NCBI GenBank assembly: GCA_017743475.1
Contig: JAGHYV010000020.1
Span: forward strand, 1-61,323
Direction: 5' to 3'
From: Roseiflexus sp.
GTDB taxonomy: Bacteria; Chloroflexota; Chloroflexia; Chloroflexales; Roseiflexaceae
DNA: 61,323 bases
Positions 48,102 through 61,216 of the stretch are shown in pieces. Positions within the stretch are counted from its first letter, which is position 1. Every line of letters starts with the position of its first letter. Below the pieces are notes generated by a model, which was given only the letters and a program-made list of their open reading frames with translations, was not told the DNA's origin and made no database searches. A program made the position numbers and the translations under genes.

Positions 48102-48180
48102 TCTGAACTACATGAATTTGCCGTGTTATGCTGTGCATATAGTTTTGTCTTCTATTTTTTTCTCATACCTGTAGTTCAGA
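48102..48180. repeat. 11-bp inverted repeat in the photosynthesis operon leader
   Basis: TCTGAACTACA (48102-48112) and TGTAGTTCAGA (48170-48180) are exact reverse complements 57 bases apart. The right arm overlaps the candidate operator at 48170-48192. A further ACTACA is at 48093-48098. Confidence 0.6.
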
Positions 48181-48192
48181 TTTGTTACTACA
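48170..48192. promoter_or_regulatory. Candidate operator TGTAGT-N11-ACTACA, copy 1
   Basis: TGTAGT at 48170-48175 and ACTACA at 48187-48192 with an 11-base spacer. The same palindrome with identical spacing occurs at 55757-55779, before the acsF-bchH operon. Confidence 0.55.
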
Positions 48193-48303: not shown

Positions 48304-49677
48304 ATGAATCTGCTTCGCGCAATTGGTCGGTTCCTGCTGGGCGCTCTCAAGGTTTTGCGTCTGGCGCTGCCCAAACTGGGTGTCGGCTGGATGTTCGCTC
48401 TGCTGACCAGCAACTTCAACCGGGTATCGATTGTGGAGTTGGGCGTAATGGCAATCATCGTCACAACGATGATCGGTTTGCACCACTTCCTGTCGCCATT
48501 CCAGGTGGTGTGGGGACGGATCGCCGATAGTCGTCCGGTCTTTGGGTTGCGCCGCACACCATACCTGCTGCTCGGCGCGACGGTCGCCAGTCTGGTCTTC
48601 CTGGCGCTGCCATCGGTGGCGGTTGCAATGGGTGAGGGTTCGGTGCTGGCAATTGTGGCGGGGTATGCGTTGCTGATCCTGTTCGGCGTCGGCATTGCGG
48701 CGATGGGCGACTGTCATCACGCGCTGATCGCCGAGGTGACCAATCCCAGGACGCGCGGCGGTGTGGTCGCGGTGGTGTGGACGTTCACCATTATGAGCAC
48801 AATCATCGCCGCAACGGTCATCAAGGCGCAGATGCCGTCCTACACCCCTGAAGCGATGCAGGCGCTCTACAATCTAACCCCGCTGGTGGTTATTGGTTCG
48901 GCGCTGCTTGGTGTTCTCGGCATTGAGAAGCGCCTGAGCCGCGAAGAACTGGCGGTCGCCCTCGAGCGCGCGCGTGCAGCGGCGCCTCCCGGAAATCCGT
49001 TGCGTGCGGCTGTCGGTCTGTTTCGCCAGAACCCGCAGGTGCGCGCCTTCTTTGGCTTTGTGTTCCTCTCGATCGTCGGCATCTTCCTACAGGACTCGAT
49101 CCTAGAAGTCTTCGGCGCTAAGGTCTTCAATATGACGATCAGGGAGACGACGACATTCACCCAGACGTGGGGCGGCGGCGTGCTTGGCGGTATGTTGGTG
49201 ATGGGTCTCTTGAGCTCCATTTTCCCGATTGGCAAGAAAGTGATCGCACTGATCGGCGGCATCGGCACCGCGTTTGGGTTGGGGTTGCTGGCGGTCTGCG
49301 CGTTGACTGAGCAGCGTTCGTTGCTCAACCCGGCGATTGTGCTCATGGGCTTCAGCACCGGTCTCTACAACGTCGGCGCGCTGTCGTTGATGATGGATAT
49401 GACCGTCGAGGGCGCCACGGGTCTCTATATGGGTATGTGGGGCATGGCGCAGGCGTTCGGGACGGCGACGGCGAATATTCTGGCTGGCGCGCTGCATACC
49501 GCGCTGATCGAGACGCAGGTGCTGAGTCAGACGCTGGGGTACGGGGTGATCTTTGGTCTGGAAGCCGTGCTGATGGTCTTCGGCATTGCGCTGCTGTCCG
49601 GTGTCAGCGTCGAGGCGTTCCGCGGACTGACCCGCGCCGATCTGACCCGCGCAATGGAAGCTGGCGCAGTGGCATGA
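48304..49677 (+). CDS. BCH2/PucC-family MFS protein of the photosynthesis operon
   Basis: 457 residues, about 12 helices; the ATG at 48304 has GGAGG upstream. The segment PKLGVGWMFALLTSNFNRVS, then LHHFLSPFQVVWGRIADSRP, GLRRTPYLLLGA and YNVGALSLMMDMTVEG, mark the BCH2 branch. Proteins of this branch (PucC, LhaA) assist antenna complex assembly or pigment delivery in the membrane. As first gene of the run with bchNBLM, a role in handling bacteriochlorophyll or its precursors is likely; the ligand is not known. Confidence 0.88.
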   Translation: MNLLRAIGRFLLGALKVLRLALPKLGVGWMFALLTSNFNRVSIVELGVMAIIVTTMIGLHHFLSPFQVVWGRIADSRPVFGLRRTPYLLLGATVASLVFLALPSVAVAMGEGSVLAIVAGYALLILFGVGIAAMGDCHHALIAEVTNPRTRGGVVAVVWTFTIMSTIIAATVIKAQMPSYTPEAMQALYNLTPLVVIGSALLGVLGIEKRLSREELAVALERARAAAPPGNPLRAAVGLFRQNPQVRAFFGFVFLSIVGIFLQDSILEVFGAKVFNMTIRETTTFTQTWGGGVLGGMLVMGLLSSIFPIGKKVIALIGGIGTAFGLGLLAVCALTEQRSLLNPAIVLMGFSTGLYNVGALSLMMDMTVEGATGLYMGMWGMAQAFGTATANILAGALHTALIETQVLSQTLGYGVIFGLEAVLMVFGIALLSGVSVEAFRGLTRADLTRAMEAGAVA

Positions 49678-50499: not shown

Positions 50500-50578
50500 G
50501 GGTTGAAGGTTGAAGATTGAGGGTTGAAGGTTGAAGGTTGAAGGTTGAACTTTGGAAGGTTGAAGGTTGAGGGTTGCG
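50486..50578. repeat. GGTTGAAG spacer repeat overlapping the methyltransferase stop
   Basis: More than ten 7-8-base units (ggttgaa, ggttgag) in tandem. The same units follow bchM (55397-55640) and bchH (61205-61290) and, reversed, occupy 11750-11930. Part of the repeat is translated as the C-terminus of the methyltransferase. Confidence 0.85.
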
Positions 50579-50625
50579 GGCGCCTCTGACCCCTGACCCT
50601 TAACCCCTGACCAAAAGGTGATGCC

Positions 50626-53874: not shown

Positions 53875-54696
53875 ATGAGTCTCACACTTGCCATTTACGG
53901 AAAAGGTGGCATCGGCAAGAGCACGACCAGTTCGAACCTGTCGGCAGCGCTGGCGCTCAAAGGCGCGAAGGTGCTTCAGATCGGCTGCGATCCCAAGCAC
54001 GACAGCACCTTCGCCCTGACCGGAACGCTGCAACCAACGGTCATCGATGTGTTGACCGAAGTTGATTTCCATCACGAAGAGGTATCAGTCGAGGATGTGG
54101 TGCGTACCGGTTTTGCCGGGGTGGACACACTGGAGTCAGGCGGTCCGCCGGCTGGCAGCGGCTGTGGCGGTTACGTCGTCGGTGAGACGGTCAAACTGCT
54201 GCACGAATTCGGGCTGTACGACAAATACGATGTGATAGTGTTCGATGTGCTTGGCGACGTAGTGTGCGGCGGGTTCTCGGCGCCGCTGAACTATGCGGAC
54301 TACGGCATCATTATTGCCTGCAACGACTTCGACAGCATCTTCGCTGCCAACCGCCTGTGCCTGGCGATCAAGCAGAAAAGCGCGCGCTACCGCGTCGAAC
54401 TTGCTGGCATCATCGCCAATCGTGTGGATTACGAACTTGGCGGCGGTACGACGCTGCTGGAACAGTTTGCCGAAACCGTCGGCACACGCATCATCGGTCG
54501 AGTGCCGTACCACGATCTCATTCGGCGCTCGCGGTTGATGGGCAAGACTCTGTTTGAGATGGAGGGTCCAGGGAAGGAGGAATGCACCGCACCCTTCCTG
54601 GAGATGGCGGAGGAATTGCTGAATCGTCCGCGCTCGACCGTTCCAAAGCCCCTGGGTGATCGTGAGATCTTCAATGTAATCGGCGGTTGGCGATGA
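53875..54696 (+). CDS. bchL: Dark protochlorophyllide reductase iron protein
   Basis: 273 residues. The ATG at 53875 has GGAGGAAGG upstream and begins [17 protein letters not shown]; an upstream TTG adds eight atypical residues. P-loop G9-KGGIGKST-17, and cluster ligands C97 (GSGCGGY) and C131 (DVVCGGF) at the family's usual numbers. A NifH-like homodimer that passes electrons to BchNB with ATP hydrolysis. Overlaps bchM by four bases (ATGA). Confidence 0.98.
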
Positions 54697-55400
54697 CCGA
54701 CGTCTCTCGACATAAGCAGCATCTGCGCGATTATTTCAATGGTGAAGGATTCCAGCGCTGGAGCGCGATCTATGGTGAGGCGGAGGTTTCGCGCGTTCGG
54801 CGCACCATCCGTATCGGACACGCCCGTATGCTGGCGCGCGCCGAAACCTGGTTGCTCGAATGGGTCAGCGCCACCGGGCGCGTCCCGCACACCTTGAATG
54901 CGTTCGACGCCGGGTGTGGCACGGGGGTGTTCAGTACCACGCTGGCGCAGCACGGTTTCAGTGTGACGGCGGTAGACATTGCGCCGCAGATGACCGCCGC
55001 AACCGCCGAACGGGTTCGAGCCGCAGGTGTCGCGCAGCGTGTGACATGTCTGACCTGCGACATTGATGCGGTTGCTGGAACCTTCGATGTGGTGGTGTGC
55101 TTCGATGTGCTGATCCACTACCCGCAACCGGCATTCGATCAGTTGATCGCTCATCTGGCGAATTGTACGCGCAGTTTGCTCCTGTTCACCTATGCGCCAT
55201 ACGAACCGTTGCTTGCCGCGATGCACTGGATCGGCGGGTTCTTCCCGCGCGCCCATCGGCGAACCGAGATTCAGATGATTCGCGAGGAAGATGTGCGTCG
55301 ATCAGTGAGCCTGAATGGGTTGCACGTCGGTCGGATTGAACCGATCCGCAGCGGGTTCTACCACGTCAATCTGGTCGAGGCAGTGCGGGGTGAACGGTGA
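54693..55400 (+). CDS. bchM: Magnesium-protoporphyrin IX O-methyltransferase
   Basis: About 235 residues from the ATG at 54693 that overlaps the bchL stop. [20 protein letters not shown] is the BchM signature near the N-terminus; SAM motif I is [28 protein letters not shown] and [20 protein letters not shown] follow, and the C-terminus [11 protein letters not shown] is typical. It makes the monomethyl ester that AcsF cyclises. The stop runs into spacer repeat DNA. Confidence 0.95.
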
Positions 55401-55740
55401 AGGTTGAAGGTGGGAAGGTGGGAAGGTTGAAGGTTGAAGGTTGAAGGTGGGAACTCAAGGGTCGGTTGGGAGACGATGTTCCAGACAAGTGGGAAGGTTG
55501 AAGGTTGAAGGTTGAAGGTGGGAACGGTGAAGGTGCGGACGGTGCAGGGTGAACGGTGACTGGTGAAGGTGGGAACTGTGAACGTTTAACGTTGAATGTT
55601 GAAGTTGGGAAGGTTGAAGGTGGGAAACTGGAAGACGTCCCAAACCTTGAGGTCTTCGCCTTGGTCTGTGGTCGCATTTCTCCTGGGATAGATTGCATCT
55701 TGCCATCTATGATCGTTGCTGTAGTGAAGAACGTGAATGG
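55397..55740. repeat. Repeat-rich spacer after bchM
   Basis: GGTTGAAG/GGTGGGAAGG units fill most of 55397-55640, with a short unrelated insert at 55455-55490. No gene in the interval; open frames on both strands here are made of repeat units. Confidence 0.85.
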
Positions 55741-55755
55741 TCTTATTCATTGTTA

Positions 55756-55780
55756 ATGTAGTAACGAATATGAACTACAT
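55756..55780. promoter_or_regulatory. Candidate operator TGTAGT-N11-ACTACA, copy 2
   Basis: TGTAGT at 55757-55762 and ACTACA at 55774-55779, with outer A/T extending it to 7-bp arms (ATGTAGT and ACTACAT). Same sequence and spacing as copy 1. It ends 31 bases before the ATG of the 109-residue gene. Confidence 0.6.
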
Positions 55781-55811: not shown

Positions 55812-56141
55812 ATGAAGCGATGGTTTCTGACGATGCTGGCGCTGGTTGCCGGAGCAGTATGGCTCTGGTATCGCCGTGAGACTGTAATTGAAGGCGAAGG
55901 GGTGGTTCATCTCCAGAGCGAACACGAACACTTCCACCTGCACGTTGATCTTCCGCCGGGCATGGAGATCGAGCCGGGTGATACGCTGGAAATTCTCACG
56001 GTTCCCAAAACCCATGGTCAGACGAATGGCGAGATCACCTATTCAAGCCGTGTCCGGTTGACCAAGGCGAGCAGCCTGCGACGTGAGCTGGTGCGGCGTA
56101 GCAGCCTGGTCGAAATCAAAGAACTGGTTGAGCATCCCTGA
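55812..56141 (+). CDS. Small membrane-anchored protein next to acsF, unknown family
   Basis: 109 residues; GAGGTCGT precedes the ATG. One N-terminal helix (FLTMLALVAGAVWLWYR) followed by a beta-rich domain of about 85 residues. Striking is the His-rich strand HLQSEHEHFHLHVDLPPGME, then PGDTLEILTVP and a Ser/Arg-rich tail with two S-S-L-x repeats (SSLRREL, SSLVEIKEL). No cysteine. It is the first gene of the acsF-bchH run, 60 bases before acsF. I do not recognise the family; a helper of the cyclase or of the chelatase is possible. Confidence 0.8.
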   Translation: MKRWFLTMLALVAGAVWLWYRRETVIEGEGVVHLQSEHEHFHLHVDLPPGMEIEPGDTLEILTVPKTHGQTNGEITYSSRVRLTKASSLRRELVRRSSLVEIKELVEHP

Positions 56142-56201: not shown

Positions 56202-57317
56202 ATGATGAACATACCTGGCGAATACACGCCGACGACGCGCCATGCGTTACGCGAGGCGATCCTGAACCCGCGTTTCTACACGACCGACTTTCGTGCAATT
56301 GATCGGCTGAATGTTGCGCACATGCGTGATGAGTTTGATTGGATCCGCAATGAGTTCGAGGTTGATTACAACCAGAAGCATTTTGTGCGCAACGATGAGT
56401 TCCTGGCGAATTTCGACGATATGCCAGCGCGAGATCTCTTCATCGAGTTCCTTGAACGAAGTTGCACGGCGGAGTTCAGTGGATGTCTGCTCTACGCAGA
56501 AATGGTCAAGCACCTGCACGATCCGACACTCAAGGCGATCTTTCGCTGCATGAGCCGCGATGAAGGTCGTCATGCCGGTTTTCTGAACAAAACCATGGCT
56601 GACCTGGGCGTCGAGATGAATCTGCAGGTGCTTCATAAGCGCAAGAAATACACCTATTTTCAGCCGAAGTTTATTTTCTACAGCGTCTACCTGTCGGAGA
56701 AGATCGGTTACGCCCGCTACATCACGATTTATCGTCACTTGCAGCAATACCCGCAGGGCATGATCCATCCGATCTTCAAATGGTTCGAGAAGTGGTGCAA
56801 CGACGAATACCGCCACGGGGAGTTCTTCTCGTTGTTGATGCGCAGTCAGCCGGATCTGCTAAGTGGCGGCAATCTGCGCTGGATCCGCTTCTTCATGCTT
56901 GCGGTGTACGCCACGATGTACCTGAACGATGCCCGTCGCGCCGGTTTTTATAAGGCGCTCGGTCTTGACTGGCGCGACTACGATCAACGGGTGATCCGCC
57001 TGACGAACCATATCGCCACGCAGGTGTTCCCGGTGACGCTGCCGGTCGATGATCCGCGCTTCTTCCGTCATCTCGACGCATGTGTGAAGTATGACGCTCA
57101 GATGCGTGCGCTCGAAGGGCGCAGCGATCCGATTGCGACTGCGCAGCGGGCGCGGCTGGGTGCTGCGATTGCGGCGCGTCTCCTGGCGACCTACCGCCTG
57201 CCGGTCGTGCCGACCACCGACGCCAACCGCTGGCAGGGGCTTGAAGGCTTTCCGAGCTATCCGGGTCCAGGCTGGAAACAGGATGCAACGCTCAATCAGC
57301 GGGTCGTATCCGCATGA
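56202..57317 (+). CDS. acsF: Aerobic Mg-protoporphyrin IX monomethyl ester cyclase
   Basis: 371 residues, standard AcsF length. GGAGAGAG precedes two adjacent ATGs (56202 and 56205). Diiron motifs: E85/E91 region in LERSCTAEFSG, E121-GR-H124 (SRDEGRHAGFLNK) and E202-YR-H205 (NDEYRHGEFF). It closes ring E using O2, making protochlorophyllide. Upstream lies the 109-residue protein and downstream bchH. No Ycf54 homologue is evident in the window. Confidence 0.96.
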   Translation: MMNIPGEYTPTTRHALREAILNPRFYTTDFRAIDRLNVAHMRDEFDWIRNEFEVDYNQKHFVRNDEFLANFDDMPARDLFIEFLERSCTAEFSGCLLYAEMVKHLHDPTLKAIFRCMSRDEGRHAGFLNKTMADLGVEMNLQVLHKRKKYTYFQPKFIFYSVYLSEKIGYARYITIYRHLQQYPQGMIHPIFKWFEKWCNDEYRHGEFFSLLMRSQPDLLSGGNLRWIRFFMLAVYATMYLNDARRAGFYKALGLDWRDYDQRVIRLTNHIATQVFPVTLPVDDPRFFRHLDACVKYDAQMRALEGRSDPIATAQRARLGAAIAARLLATYRLPVVPTTDANRWQGLEGFPSYPGPGWKQDATLNQRVVSA

Positions 57318-57364: not shown

Positions 57365-60300
57365 ATGCGATTCGTCTTTTTGACCATGGACGGTAATCAC
57401 TTCGCGGCGTTGCGCAAAGGAGCGGAATTGTTGCGCCGCGATGAGGGGATCGCCCTGAGCCTGGGATGCTATGACACGAATGCGCTGCGAACCGAAGCGG
57501 ACTGGCAACGCCTGGCGGATGATGTGGCAGCATGTGATTTCGTCTTCGGCTCGATGCTCTTCGGCGAGGAGTTCGTTCGCCCGCTGGAGCGCGTGCTGGA
57601 ACAGGCGCACGCGCCAGTCTGCATTATCACCAGCAATCCGGCGCTGATCCGGAAGACGCGCATCGGTCATTTCGATCTGCGGAAGAAGGTGGAGGAGCAG
57701 GAGGCGTCGCTGCTCAGTCGCTGGATGCATAAGTTCCGTCCAAAGAACGGGCGCGGCGAGGGGCAACGGCAACTGGCGCTGATACGCAACCTGGGGCGTG
57801 TGTTGCAGCATATTCCCGGAAAAGCGCGCGATCTGGCAACCTACATCGCTGTTCATCAGTACTGGATGCACAGTTCGCCGGAAAATCTGCGCCGCATGTT
57901 GGCAATGCTGATCGAACGCTACGTGCCGGGGTATCAGTGGCGCCTGAAGGTGCTGCCGCCGATTGAGTATCCCGATGTGGCGCTGCTGCATCCCGATGCG
58001 CCGGAACCGTTCGGTGACGAGCGGGAGTACGCACAGTGGCTGGCGCAGCGTTCCAGACGGCGCAAGGGTGAGACGGTCAAGGGAACCGTCGGTTTGCTGA
58101 CGTTACGCACAGTGGCGTTGAGCGGCAATATGGCGCATTTGCACGCACTCTACCGGGCGCTGGAGCAGCGCGGTCTTGAGGTTCGCATGGCATATGCTGC
58201 TGGTCTCGATTTCCGTCCGGCGATTGAGCGTTTCTTCATGGAACGCCAGGCGCAGCACCACTGGTTCGGCGCTGCAAAGACCCCTCGCCATCCCCGCCGG
58301 GCAACGGTCGATGTCCTGGTCAACGGCGTGGGCTTTGCCCTGGTCGGCGGGATGGCGGCAAGCCAGCCAGAGGAAGCGGTTGCAGCGCTCAGCGATCTCG
58401 ATGTTTCGTATCTGAGTCTGGTGCCCCTCTCTTTCCAGCGAGTCGAAGAGTGGCAGCGCGACGATGCCGGACTCTCCCCGATTCAGGTGGCGATGAATGT
58501 GGCGCTGCCGGAACTCGATGGTGCGACCGAGCCGCTGGTTTTTGGCGGACCGACCGCCGGCAGTGATCAGTTTGTGCCGTTGCCCGATCAGATTGAACTT
58601 GCCGCCGGGCGGATCGAGCGGCATGTGGCGCTGCGACGCACGCCAAACCATGCGAAAAAACTGGCGCTGGTGCTCTTCAACTTTCCGCCGAATCTCGGCA
58701 ACGCTGGCACTGCCGCGTATCTCGATGTGTTTGCATCGCTCCATCGTCTGCTCCTGGCATTGCGCGACGCCGGATACACGGTCGAGGTTCCAGAAACGCC
58801 GGAAGAACTGCGCTATCGCGTGGTGCAGCAGAACGCTGAACTGTTCGGCACGCCCGGCAATGTGGCTGCACGTCTCAGCGTCGCTGATTACCGGCGGCTC
58901 TTCCCGGCATACGTGGCTATCGAGCCATTCTGGGGAGCGGCCCCCGGCGAGTTGCTGACCGATGGACGAGATTTCTTCATTTGTGGTCACTTTTTTGGCA
59001 ATGTGTTCGTCGGATTGCAGCCATCCTTCGGCTATGAGCGCGACCCGATGCGTCTGCTGATGGCGAAGGATGCGGCGCCCAACCATGCATTTGCCGCTTT
59101 CTACACATGGTTGACGCATGTGTTCGGCGCGCACGCGGTGGTGCACTTCGGCACCCATGGCGCGCTGGAGTTTATGCCCGGCAAGCAAGCCGGCCTCAGC
59201 GCACAGTGCTGGCCCATGCGGTTGCTCGGTCCGTTGCCGAACATCTACTACTACAGCGTCAACAACCCCAGCGAAGGCACGATTGCAAAGCGACGCAGCG
59301 CAGCAACGCTGGTGAGTTATATGGTCCCGCCGCTCCAGCAGGCTGGTCTGTACAAAGGGTTGCGTCGCCTTAAGGACACGCTCGATGCCTTCCGTGCGCG
59401 ACCCGATCCGGGTGTGCTGGCGGATATTCGCGCACAGGCGGAACAACTGGGCATTGGCAGCGAGTCGCTCGATGCTGCAAACGATGAAGCATATGTGGCA
59501 TCACTGGCGCATGAACTGATCCAGATCGAGCAACGCATGATCCCGGTGGGATTGCACGTTCTCGATAAGGCCCCCGATCCCGCCGAACTTGCCGATGTGC
59601 TGGCGCTGGTTGCCGCATTCGCCCGTCCTCCAGGTGTCGAATACCCGCTGACCCATCTGGTGGCCACAGCGCTGGGGCACGATTACGGTCGTTTGCAGGC
59701 GGCGCTGCGCCACGATCTGCGCGCCCAGGAGATCTTTCAGCAGATCGATGTGATCGTGCGTGATGCGGTGCGTGCGCTGGTGGACGAGTATCGGAGTCGG
59801 GAGTCATCGGCGTCTCTGCTGGTTGCGACATTCGAGCGCCTGTTGCAACAGCGCGCACACTTGCCGACCGATACGCTGCGCCGGTTCCGCGCCTATCTCG
59901 AAGCGTTGCTCGACCGGATGGTGCACGACCACGAACTCCGCAACCTGTTGCACGCGCTGGACGGCGGCTACATTCCGCCGTCGCCCGGCAACGATGTGGT
60001 GCGCAACCCGGCTGCCGCGCCGACCGGACGCAATATCCACGGTCTGGATCCCTATCGTGTGCCCACGCCTGCGGCTCAGGCAACCGGCGAACGTCTGGTT
60101 GCCGACTTGCTGGCGCGCCTGACCCGTGATCAGGGACGTATGCCGGAAAGCGTCGCCATCGTGCTGTGGGGTACCGATAACCTGAAGAGTGACGGCGAGG
60201 GGGTGGCGCAGGCGCTGGCGCTCATGGGCGCGCGTCCGGTCACCGACGAACTCGGCAATGTCAGCGACGTGACGCTCATTCCGCTGGAAGAACTGGGCAG

Positions 60301-61216
60301 ACCACGCGTCGATGCAGTGATCACTGTCAGCGGCATCTTCCGCGACCTGTTCGTCCACCAGATGCGCCTGCTGGATAAGGCGGCGCGACTGGCGGCGCAC
60401 GCTGATGAACCGCCAGAGTGGAATTATGTGCGCAAACATGCGCTCGCTCATGCCGCGGAACTCAGCATCAGTCTCGATGACGCTGCCATCCGGGTATTCT
60501 CGAATGCGCCGGGGAGTTACGGTGCGAATGTCAATCACCTGGTGGAAAGCAGCACCTGGAACAGCGATGCCGAAATGAGCGAAGCCTTTGTTGCACGGAA
60601 GAGTTTCACGCTCGACGCGCGCGGCGAATGGCGTGATGCGCGCGCCATCATGGAGCGTGCGCTGGCGACAGTTGACGCCACCTTCCAGAATGTGGACAGT
60701 TTCGAGATTGGGATCAGCGACATCGATCACTACTACGAATATCTGGGTGGCGTAACGAAGAGCGTCGAGAAACTACGCGGCGTCCGCCCGCGCGTCCTGG
60801 TCGCCGAGGCGCTGGCGACCACTGGCGAGCGCATCAGCACGCTGGAGCAACAGGTGCGTATTGAAACCCGCGCCAAACTCTTGAATCCGAAGTGGTTCGA
60901 GGCAATGCTGGCGCACGGCTATCAGGGGGTGCACGAAATCGAAGCGCGCGTCAGCAACACCTATGGCTGGAGCGCCACCGCCGATGCCGTCGAGGGGTGG
61001 GTGTATCAGGGGGTGGCGGAAACCTTCATCCTCGATGAAGCCATGCGTGAGCGACTGGCAAGCCTGAACCCGCATGCTGCCACAGCTATCGCTGGCAGAC
61101 TGCTCGAAGCACACAGTCGTGGGTTCTGGGATGCAGATGAAGCAACCCTCGAAGCGCTTCAAGCCATTTATGCGGATCTTGAGGATCGGTTGGAAGGGGT
61201 TGCGGTTGGATGTTGA
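57365..61216 (+). CDS. bchH: Magnesium chelatase subunit H
   Basis: 1283 residues, full length for BchH. The ATG at 57365 follows AAGGACTC. The CobN/Mg-chelatase domain is marked by HFGTHGALEFMPGKQAGLSA, YYYSVNNPSEGTIAKRRSAA, VVRNPAAAPTGRNIHGLDPY, PESVAIVLWGTDNLKSDGEG and GSYGANVNHLVESSTWNSDA. It binds protoporphyrin IX and Mg2+ for insertion with BchI/BchD, which are not in this window. It is the last complete gene here; Chloroflexota often carry several bchH paralogues. Confidence 0.97.
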   Translation: MRFVFLTMDGNHFAALRKGAELLRRDEGIALSLGCYDTNALRTEADWQRLADDVAACDFVFGSMLFGEEFVRPLERVLEQAHAPVCIITSNPALIRKTRIGHFDLRKKVEEQEASLLSRWMHKFRPKNGRGEGQRQLALIRNLGRVLQHIPGKARDLATYIAVHQYWMHSSPENLRRMLAMLIERYVPGYQWRLKVLPPIEYPDVALLHPDAPEPFGDEREYAQWLAQRSRRRKGETVKGTVGLLTLRTVALSGNMAHLHALYRALEQRGLEVRMAYAAGLDFRPAIERFFMERQAQHHWFGAAKTPRHPRRATVDVLVNGVGFALVGGMAASQPEEAVAALSDLDVSYLSLVPLSFQRVEEWQRDDAGLSPIQVAMNVALPELDGATEPLVFGGPTAGSDQFVPLPDQIELAAGRIERHVALRRTPNHAKKLALVLFNFPPNLGNAGTAAYLDVFASLHRLLLALRDAGYTVEVPETPEELRYRVVQQNAELFGTPGNVAARLSVADYRRLFPAYVAIEPFWGAAPGELLTDGRDFFICGHFFGNVFVGLQPSFGYERDPMRLLMAKDAAPNHAFAAFYTWLTHVFGAHAVVHFGTHGALEFMPGKQAGLSAQCWPMRLLGPLPNIYYYSVNNPSEGTIAKRRSAATLVSYMVPPLQQAGLYKGLRRLKDTLDAFRARPDPGVLADIRAQAEQLGIGSESLDAANDEAYVASLAHELIQIEQRMIPVGLHVLDKAPDPAELADVLALVAAFARPPGVEYPLTHLVATALGHDYGRLQAALRHDLRAQEIFQQIDVIVRDAVRALVDEYRSRESSASLLVATFERLLQQRAHLPTDTLRRFRAYLEALLDRMVHDHELRNLLHALDGGYIPPSPGNDVVRNPAAAPTGRNIHGLDPYRVPTPAAQATGERLVADLLARLTRDQGRMPESVAIVLWGTDNLKSDGEGVAQALALMGARPVTDELGNVSDVTLIPLEELGRPRVDAVITVSGIFRDLFVHQMRLLDKAARLAAHADEPPEWNYVRKHALAHAAELSISLDDAAIRVFSNAPGSYGANVNHLVESSTWNSDAEMSEAFVARKSFTLDARGEWRDARAIMERALATVDATFQNVDSFEIGISDIDHYYEYLGGVTKSVEKLRGVRPRVLVAEALATTGERISTLEQQVRIETRAKLLNPKWFEAMLAHGYQGVHEIEARVSNTYGWSATADAVEGWVYQGVAETFILDEAMRERLASLNPHAATAIAGRLLEAHSRGFWDADEATLEALQAIYADLEDRLEGVAVGC

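Follow-up and report, generated by a model that had tools for sequence, protein, structure and literature searches.

Within the 61,323-nucleotide stretch of Roseiflexus sp. DNA analysed here (the window), an ATG opens a complete reading frame of 109 codons at positions 55812–56141 of the forward strand, and its product contains SEHEHFHLHVDL. We refer to it as the bciE-like gene, on the basis of the reading frame, its homologues and the profile searches described below. It is followed after 60 bases by acsF (56202–57317, forward strand; NCBIfam TIGR02029, 1.8e-132) and, 47 bases further on, by bchH for the large subunit of magnesium chelatase (57365–61216, forward strand), which is the last gene of the unit and was assigned from its reading frame and position. 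The name bchH was taken over from the earlier note on this DNA; it agrees with the position of bchH in Chloroflexus (Caur_2591) and with the conservation beside acsF, as bchH homologues adjoin acsF in most relatives. For Chloroflexus aurantiacus, the position between bchM (Caur_2588) and acsF (Caur_2590) points to Caur_2589 as the expected homologue of the bciE-like gene. The preceding transcription unit ends with bchM (54687–55400, forward strand; TIGR02021, PF07109). The small frame ahead of acsF, which the earlier note had treated as a gene, is a genuine one: homologues with identical start and stop positions occur in five genera of the family, and a codon comparison with three congeners gave a dN/dS of about 0.06–0.24, so that the frame encodes a protein under constraint by purifying selection.

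The bciE-acsF-bchH unit is preceded by a candidate operator, the perfect inverted repeat TGTAGT-N11-ACTACA at 55757–55779 (forward strand), recognised by repeat search and conservation. With a second copy at 48170–48192, the window holds two where 0.01 are expected, and the repeat that had been put forward as a shared operator is thus real. It is also kept upstream of the bciE-like gene in relatives and still stands before bchH in three genomes without the two genes (G058, G041 and G063). Sites of the form GTAGT-N11-ACTAC lie before a transporter-like gene (ORF 48304–49677) heading the run on the bchM side and before bciE-acsF-bchH, and one is located about 1.2 kb before bchE (G000:C169:26470–26490). 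These placements recur in congeners; genome-wide, the pattern is no more frequent than its control. It has the look of an operator for a bacteriochlorophyll regulon that takes in both cyclase units, the oxygen-dependent and the oxygen-independent one. Short GGTTGAAGGTGGGAA-like repeats are arrayed at 55400–55640, between bchM and the operator, and a similar repeat region seems to be present at about 50500–50620.

According to an AlphaFold2 model based on a 39-sequence alignment (mean pLDDT 83), the protein consists of a helix (residues 2–21), four strands (24–37, 40–46, 58–61 and 74–85) and a terminal helix (88–107). The first helix (55815–55874, forward strand) is, from the model and from hydropathy, a predicted transmembrane segment, while residues 24–109 (55881–56138, forward strand) form the BciE domain of four strands followed by the long helix. 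Two stretches of this domain stand out, a strand with the sequence SEHEHFHLHV (residues 36–45; 55917–55946, forward strand), delimited by residue comparison, and a PGD turn (residues 55–57; 55974–55982, forward strand), whose glycine and aspartate are invariant in the 39 aligned sequences from both phyla. The membrane anchor proposed in the earlier note is upheld by the predicted helix and by an N-terminal hydrophobicity above that of the proteobacterial homologues, the best 15-residue mean being 1.66 to 2.65 in 24 Chloroflexales proteins and -0.63 to 1.35 in the proteobacterial ones. Charges flanking the anchor do not decide its topology. No anchor is present in the proteobacterial BciE proteins examined, in contrast to the Chloroflexales form, although the literature does not make this absence a defining trait.

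What kind of protein is this? Searches of Pfam and NCBIfam returned no model matching the bciE-like frame, nor any matching proteobacterial BciE, and a sequence search of the PDB with the bciE-like protein gave chance matches only. Likewise, tblastn against plasmids produced nothing useful; simple BLAST thus fails to detect the BciE relationship in that set. Profile comparisons, by contrast, recovered it in both directions. An HMM built solely from 29 proteobacterial proteins ranks the bciE-like frame first among the 921 ORFs of the window with an E-value of 4.7e-10 (next best 0.87); its best E-value for other Chloroflexales proteins is 2.4e-12. For the reverse search, an alignment of AcsF was run against bacterial and archaeal genomes and provided 80 acsF loci with 7637 ORFs; at most of the proteobacterial loci, an HMM built solely from Chloroflexales proteins matches the frame directly before acsF (best E-value 1.7e-9), and it found no match elsewhere among the 7637 ORFs at E-values up to 1 and none in the cyanobacterial acsF loci. 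An hhalign comparison of 24 Chloroflexales with eight alphaproteobacterial proteins gave a probability of 94% and an E-value of 1e-7 over 76 collinear columns. In the alignment, only about 17–27% of residues are identical to those of proteobacterial BciE, with G56, D57, A86 and L105 invariant in 39 of 39 sequences of both phyla.

The alphaproteobacterial homologue sits between puhC and acsF (L027, L028, L029 and five more loci), and calling it BciE rests on the published gene order puhBC-bciE-acsF-puhE (PMC10576062). As judged from sequence, the bciE-like product is therefore a remote, divergent BciE homologue fused to an N-terminal transmembrane helix. The suggestion that it might be an unrecognised third kind of cyclase helper has to give way to membership in the BciE family, since the profiles agree in both directions and a profile search led to the proteobacterial frame preceding acsF. 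The two forms share the homologous domain, the predicted order of secondary structure and the place directly upstream of acsF; the Chloroflexales protein differs by the added N-terminal helix, the His-rich strand and a C-terminal ELVEHP, and its gene is flanked by bchM and bchH rather than by puhC and puhE. In a model of a proteobacterial homologue (L135), strands at residues 11–22, 27–33, 44–47 and 58–69 are followed by a helix at 73–91, so that both models have the predicted element order E-E-E-E-H, with the first helix missing from the proteobacterial one.

Foldseek searches with both models, Chloroflexales and proteobacterial, yielded no significant match (E above 0.4). A second structure search gave Z-scores under 5 with a phage tailspike domain first; a few rows pointed to flavin-domain barrels of reductases (7c3b at Z 3.9 over 59 residues with an rmsd of 3.0, and 4wqm at Z 3.3 over 60 residues with an rmsd of 3.5), and these matches were rejected as too weak. 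Ycf54 resembles the Chloroflexales protein in being a small auxiliary protein tied to AcsF. According to the published description it is soluble, with a sheet that has five helices on its flanks (PMC13297055), whereas the Chloroflexales protein is predicted to have four strands, one terminal helix and a membrane anchor. The Chloroflexales protein gave no match to Ycf54 in the Pfam, NCBIfam and PDB sequence searches, and Ycf54 is not among the rows of the fold search.

The gene is strictly associated with acsF in Chloroflexales. Among 82 genomes, 39 hold the bciE-like frame and the same 39 hold acsF, 37 with both genes found and two (G013 and G062) with remnants of both; the acsF of G046 is broken into three frames, probably because of assembly errors. 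The two genes are adjacent wherever Chloroflexales keep acsF. bchM is present in 52 of the 82 genomes, and all 13 that have bchM without acsF are also without the bciE-like frame (G027, G028, G030, G039, G040, G041, G043, G045, G056, G058, G061, G063 and G064). Each of these 13 carries bchE, in pieces in G045. Genera g10, g11 and g25 include genomes with and without the pair, so the losses have recurred. In G044, G047 and G048 the pair stays together, and the stretches examined show no bchM or bchH next to it.

Several loci retain traces of the losses. The pair is absent between bchM and bchH in G058, G041 and G063 (L168–L170), all three with the operator still before bchH, and in G063 a tail scar of acsF is left. 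G062 (L165) has kept the last 39 or so codons of the bciE-like gene next to an acsF with its own internal deletion, which makes two lesions, while in G013:C197 (L021) one deletion fuses bciE-like codons 1–35 in frame to acsF at about codon 326. The loci can be arranged as a decay series running from double remnant to acsF tail scar to clean absence, the operator before bchH being retained. Two contigs of G010 (C554 and C8; L203 and L204) share an overlap of exactly 141 bases, which is likely the k of the assembler. One of them ends at the deletion codon of G013, so a deletion allele may be segregating in G010.

Across 400 genomes of the phylum we found no intact bciE-like frame without acsF, and the only acsF without a bciE-like frame is that of G341, which belongs to the same class but lies outside the order. 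This acsF (L161) is divergent, at 44% identity, and no BciE was detected with it. The expectation that relatives have a homologue beside acsF holds in the Chloroflexales tested and fails in G341, where acsF stands alone. Loss of neighbours by a single deletion can occur without any functional tie. Such a tie between the bciE-like gene and acsF is nevertheless likely, because neither gene is kept alone in any Chloroflexales genome, the two have relocated jointly and one genome carries a double lesion.

We hypothesize, with a probability of roughly 85%, that the gene encodes the Chloroflexales form of BciE, an auxiliary subunit of the oxygen-dependent cyclase that is tethered to the membrane by the added N-terminal helix. 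The BciE homology, the transmembrane-like segment, the obligatory partnership with acsF and the joint loss and movement were computed, and the role as an AcsF subunit is proposed from the homology and the co-loss. BciE has been reported as required for the alphaproteobacterial cyclase (PMC7319587). The protein would be made under the operator common to acsF and bchH, its strand-plus-helix domain would lie on the cytoplasmic side and bind AcsF directly, stabilising or activating it, and it would thus take the place that Ycf54 has in cyanobacteria. The anchor would fix AcsF at the membrane, where the hydrophobic substrate is handled.

A milder and overlapping alternative, which we regard as possible though clearly less probable, is that the protein is an accessory tuning the amount or oxygen tolerance of AcsF, with Chloroflexota AcsF catalytically sufficient alone. 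Cyclases are divided into Ycf54-dependent, BciE-dependent (alphaproteobacteria) and AcsF-only classes, the last comprising most anoxygenic phototrophs (PMC7319587), and Chloroflexi are explicitly listed as AcsF-only (PMC13297055). The AcsF-only cyclase of the Rubrivivax type has the same catalytic subunit family, and Rubrivivax AcsF was reported active alone (PMC7319587). All 30 Burkholderiales acsF loci examined (family of G442) are without a BciE gene, in agreement with an AcsF-only cyclase of the Rubrivivax type, whereas every Chloroflexales locus has one. Together with the reported activity of Rubrivivax AcsF, these loci imply that AcsF chemistry needs no BciE in principle, and the BciE-less AcsF of G341 also fits an accessory. 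Against it, no Chloroflexales genome has acsF without the bciE-like frame, not even G004, G057 and G076, where the search for bchE gave nothing above the cut-off, and we saw no citation of an assay on an enzyme from Chloroflexota behind the AcsF-only listing.

Could the EHEHFHLH strand deliver metal or iron to the di-iron site of AcsF? Chloroflexales show no variation at its four alternating histidines, and H42 and H44 are mostly retained in proteobacteria; however, H42 is replaced by Glu, Tyr or Cys in several proteobacterial homologues and H44 by Tyr or Asn in 4 of 29, and H38 and H40 occur in Chloroflexales only. Because these two are absent from proteobacterial BciE, a conserved metal site is unlikely as the general function, and the His-rich strand is a Chloroflexales elaboration; we consider metal delivery improbable. 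Least probable is service to BchH, or handling of the Mg-porphyrin substrate between the chelatase, the methyltransferase and the cyclase, as the earlier note had also considered, for although most genomes have the frame between bchM and bchH, every bchM-bchH genome that lost acsF lost it as well, three genomes keep the pair away from both genes, and proteobacterial homologues precede acsF in a different neighbourhood.

Outside the alphaproteobacteria, a BciE gene before acsF was found at four Polynucleobacter loci and one Granulosicoccaceae locus, and two further genomes of the latter's gammaproteobacterial class carry it. The Polynucleobacter proteins (betaproteobacteria; L101, L105, L106 and L124) have a C-terminal extension of about 20–30 residues, and Polynucleobacter IMCC 30228 (L140) is without BciE. 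In a quick AcsF tree (SH-aLRT only, rooted on cyanobacteria, with the single long G341 branch unplaced), Chloroflexales (12 rows) and proteobacteria (45 rows) form separate groups, and BciE occurs in both. The BciE-less Burkholderiales are nested among BciE-bearing proteobacterial lineages, which suggests that their AcsF-only state is derived. The simplest reading is that AcsF and BciE were paired ancestrally and that Burkholderiales lost BciE, the tree leaving root and transfer undecided. On balance we lean slightly towards BciE being an old core partner of anoxygenic AcsF that predates the split between Chloroflexota and proteobacterial AcsF, with the AcsF-only state of Burkholderiales a later simplification and the tethered form evolved or kept in Chloroflexales.

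The subunit make-up of the cyclase was a long-standing puzzle and is now organised in three classes (PMC13297055, PMC7319587). A literature search, which did not extend to the primary 2017 BciE paper, found no text linking BciE to Chloroflexota. Since reviews give AcsF as the sole cyclase component of Chloroflexi, the Chloroflexales gene is, on sequence grounds, a previously unrecognised membrane-tethered branch of BciE. The three-class scheme is altered by a BciE homologue that accompanies acsF in all Chloroflexales genomes retaining the enzyme. The prediction follows that AcsF from Chloroflexota, expressed in a heterologous host, may not work unless the BciE-like protein is supplied. The homologue also gives an evolutionary order that can be tested, and phototrophs with bchE in which both genes were repeatedly lost together provide natural experiments on oxygen adaptation.
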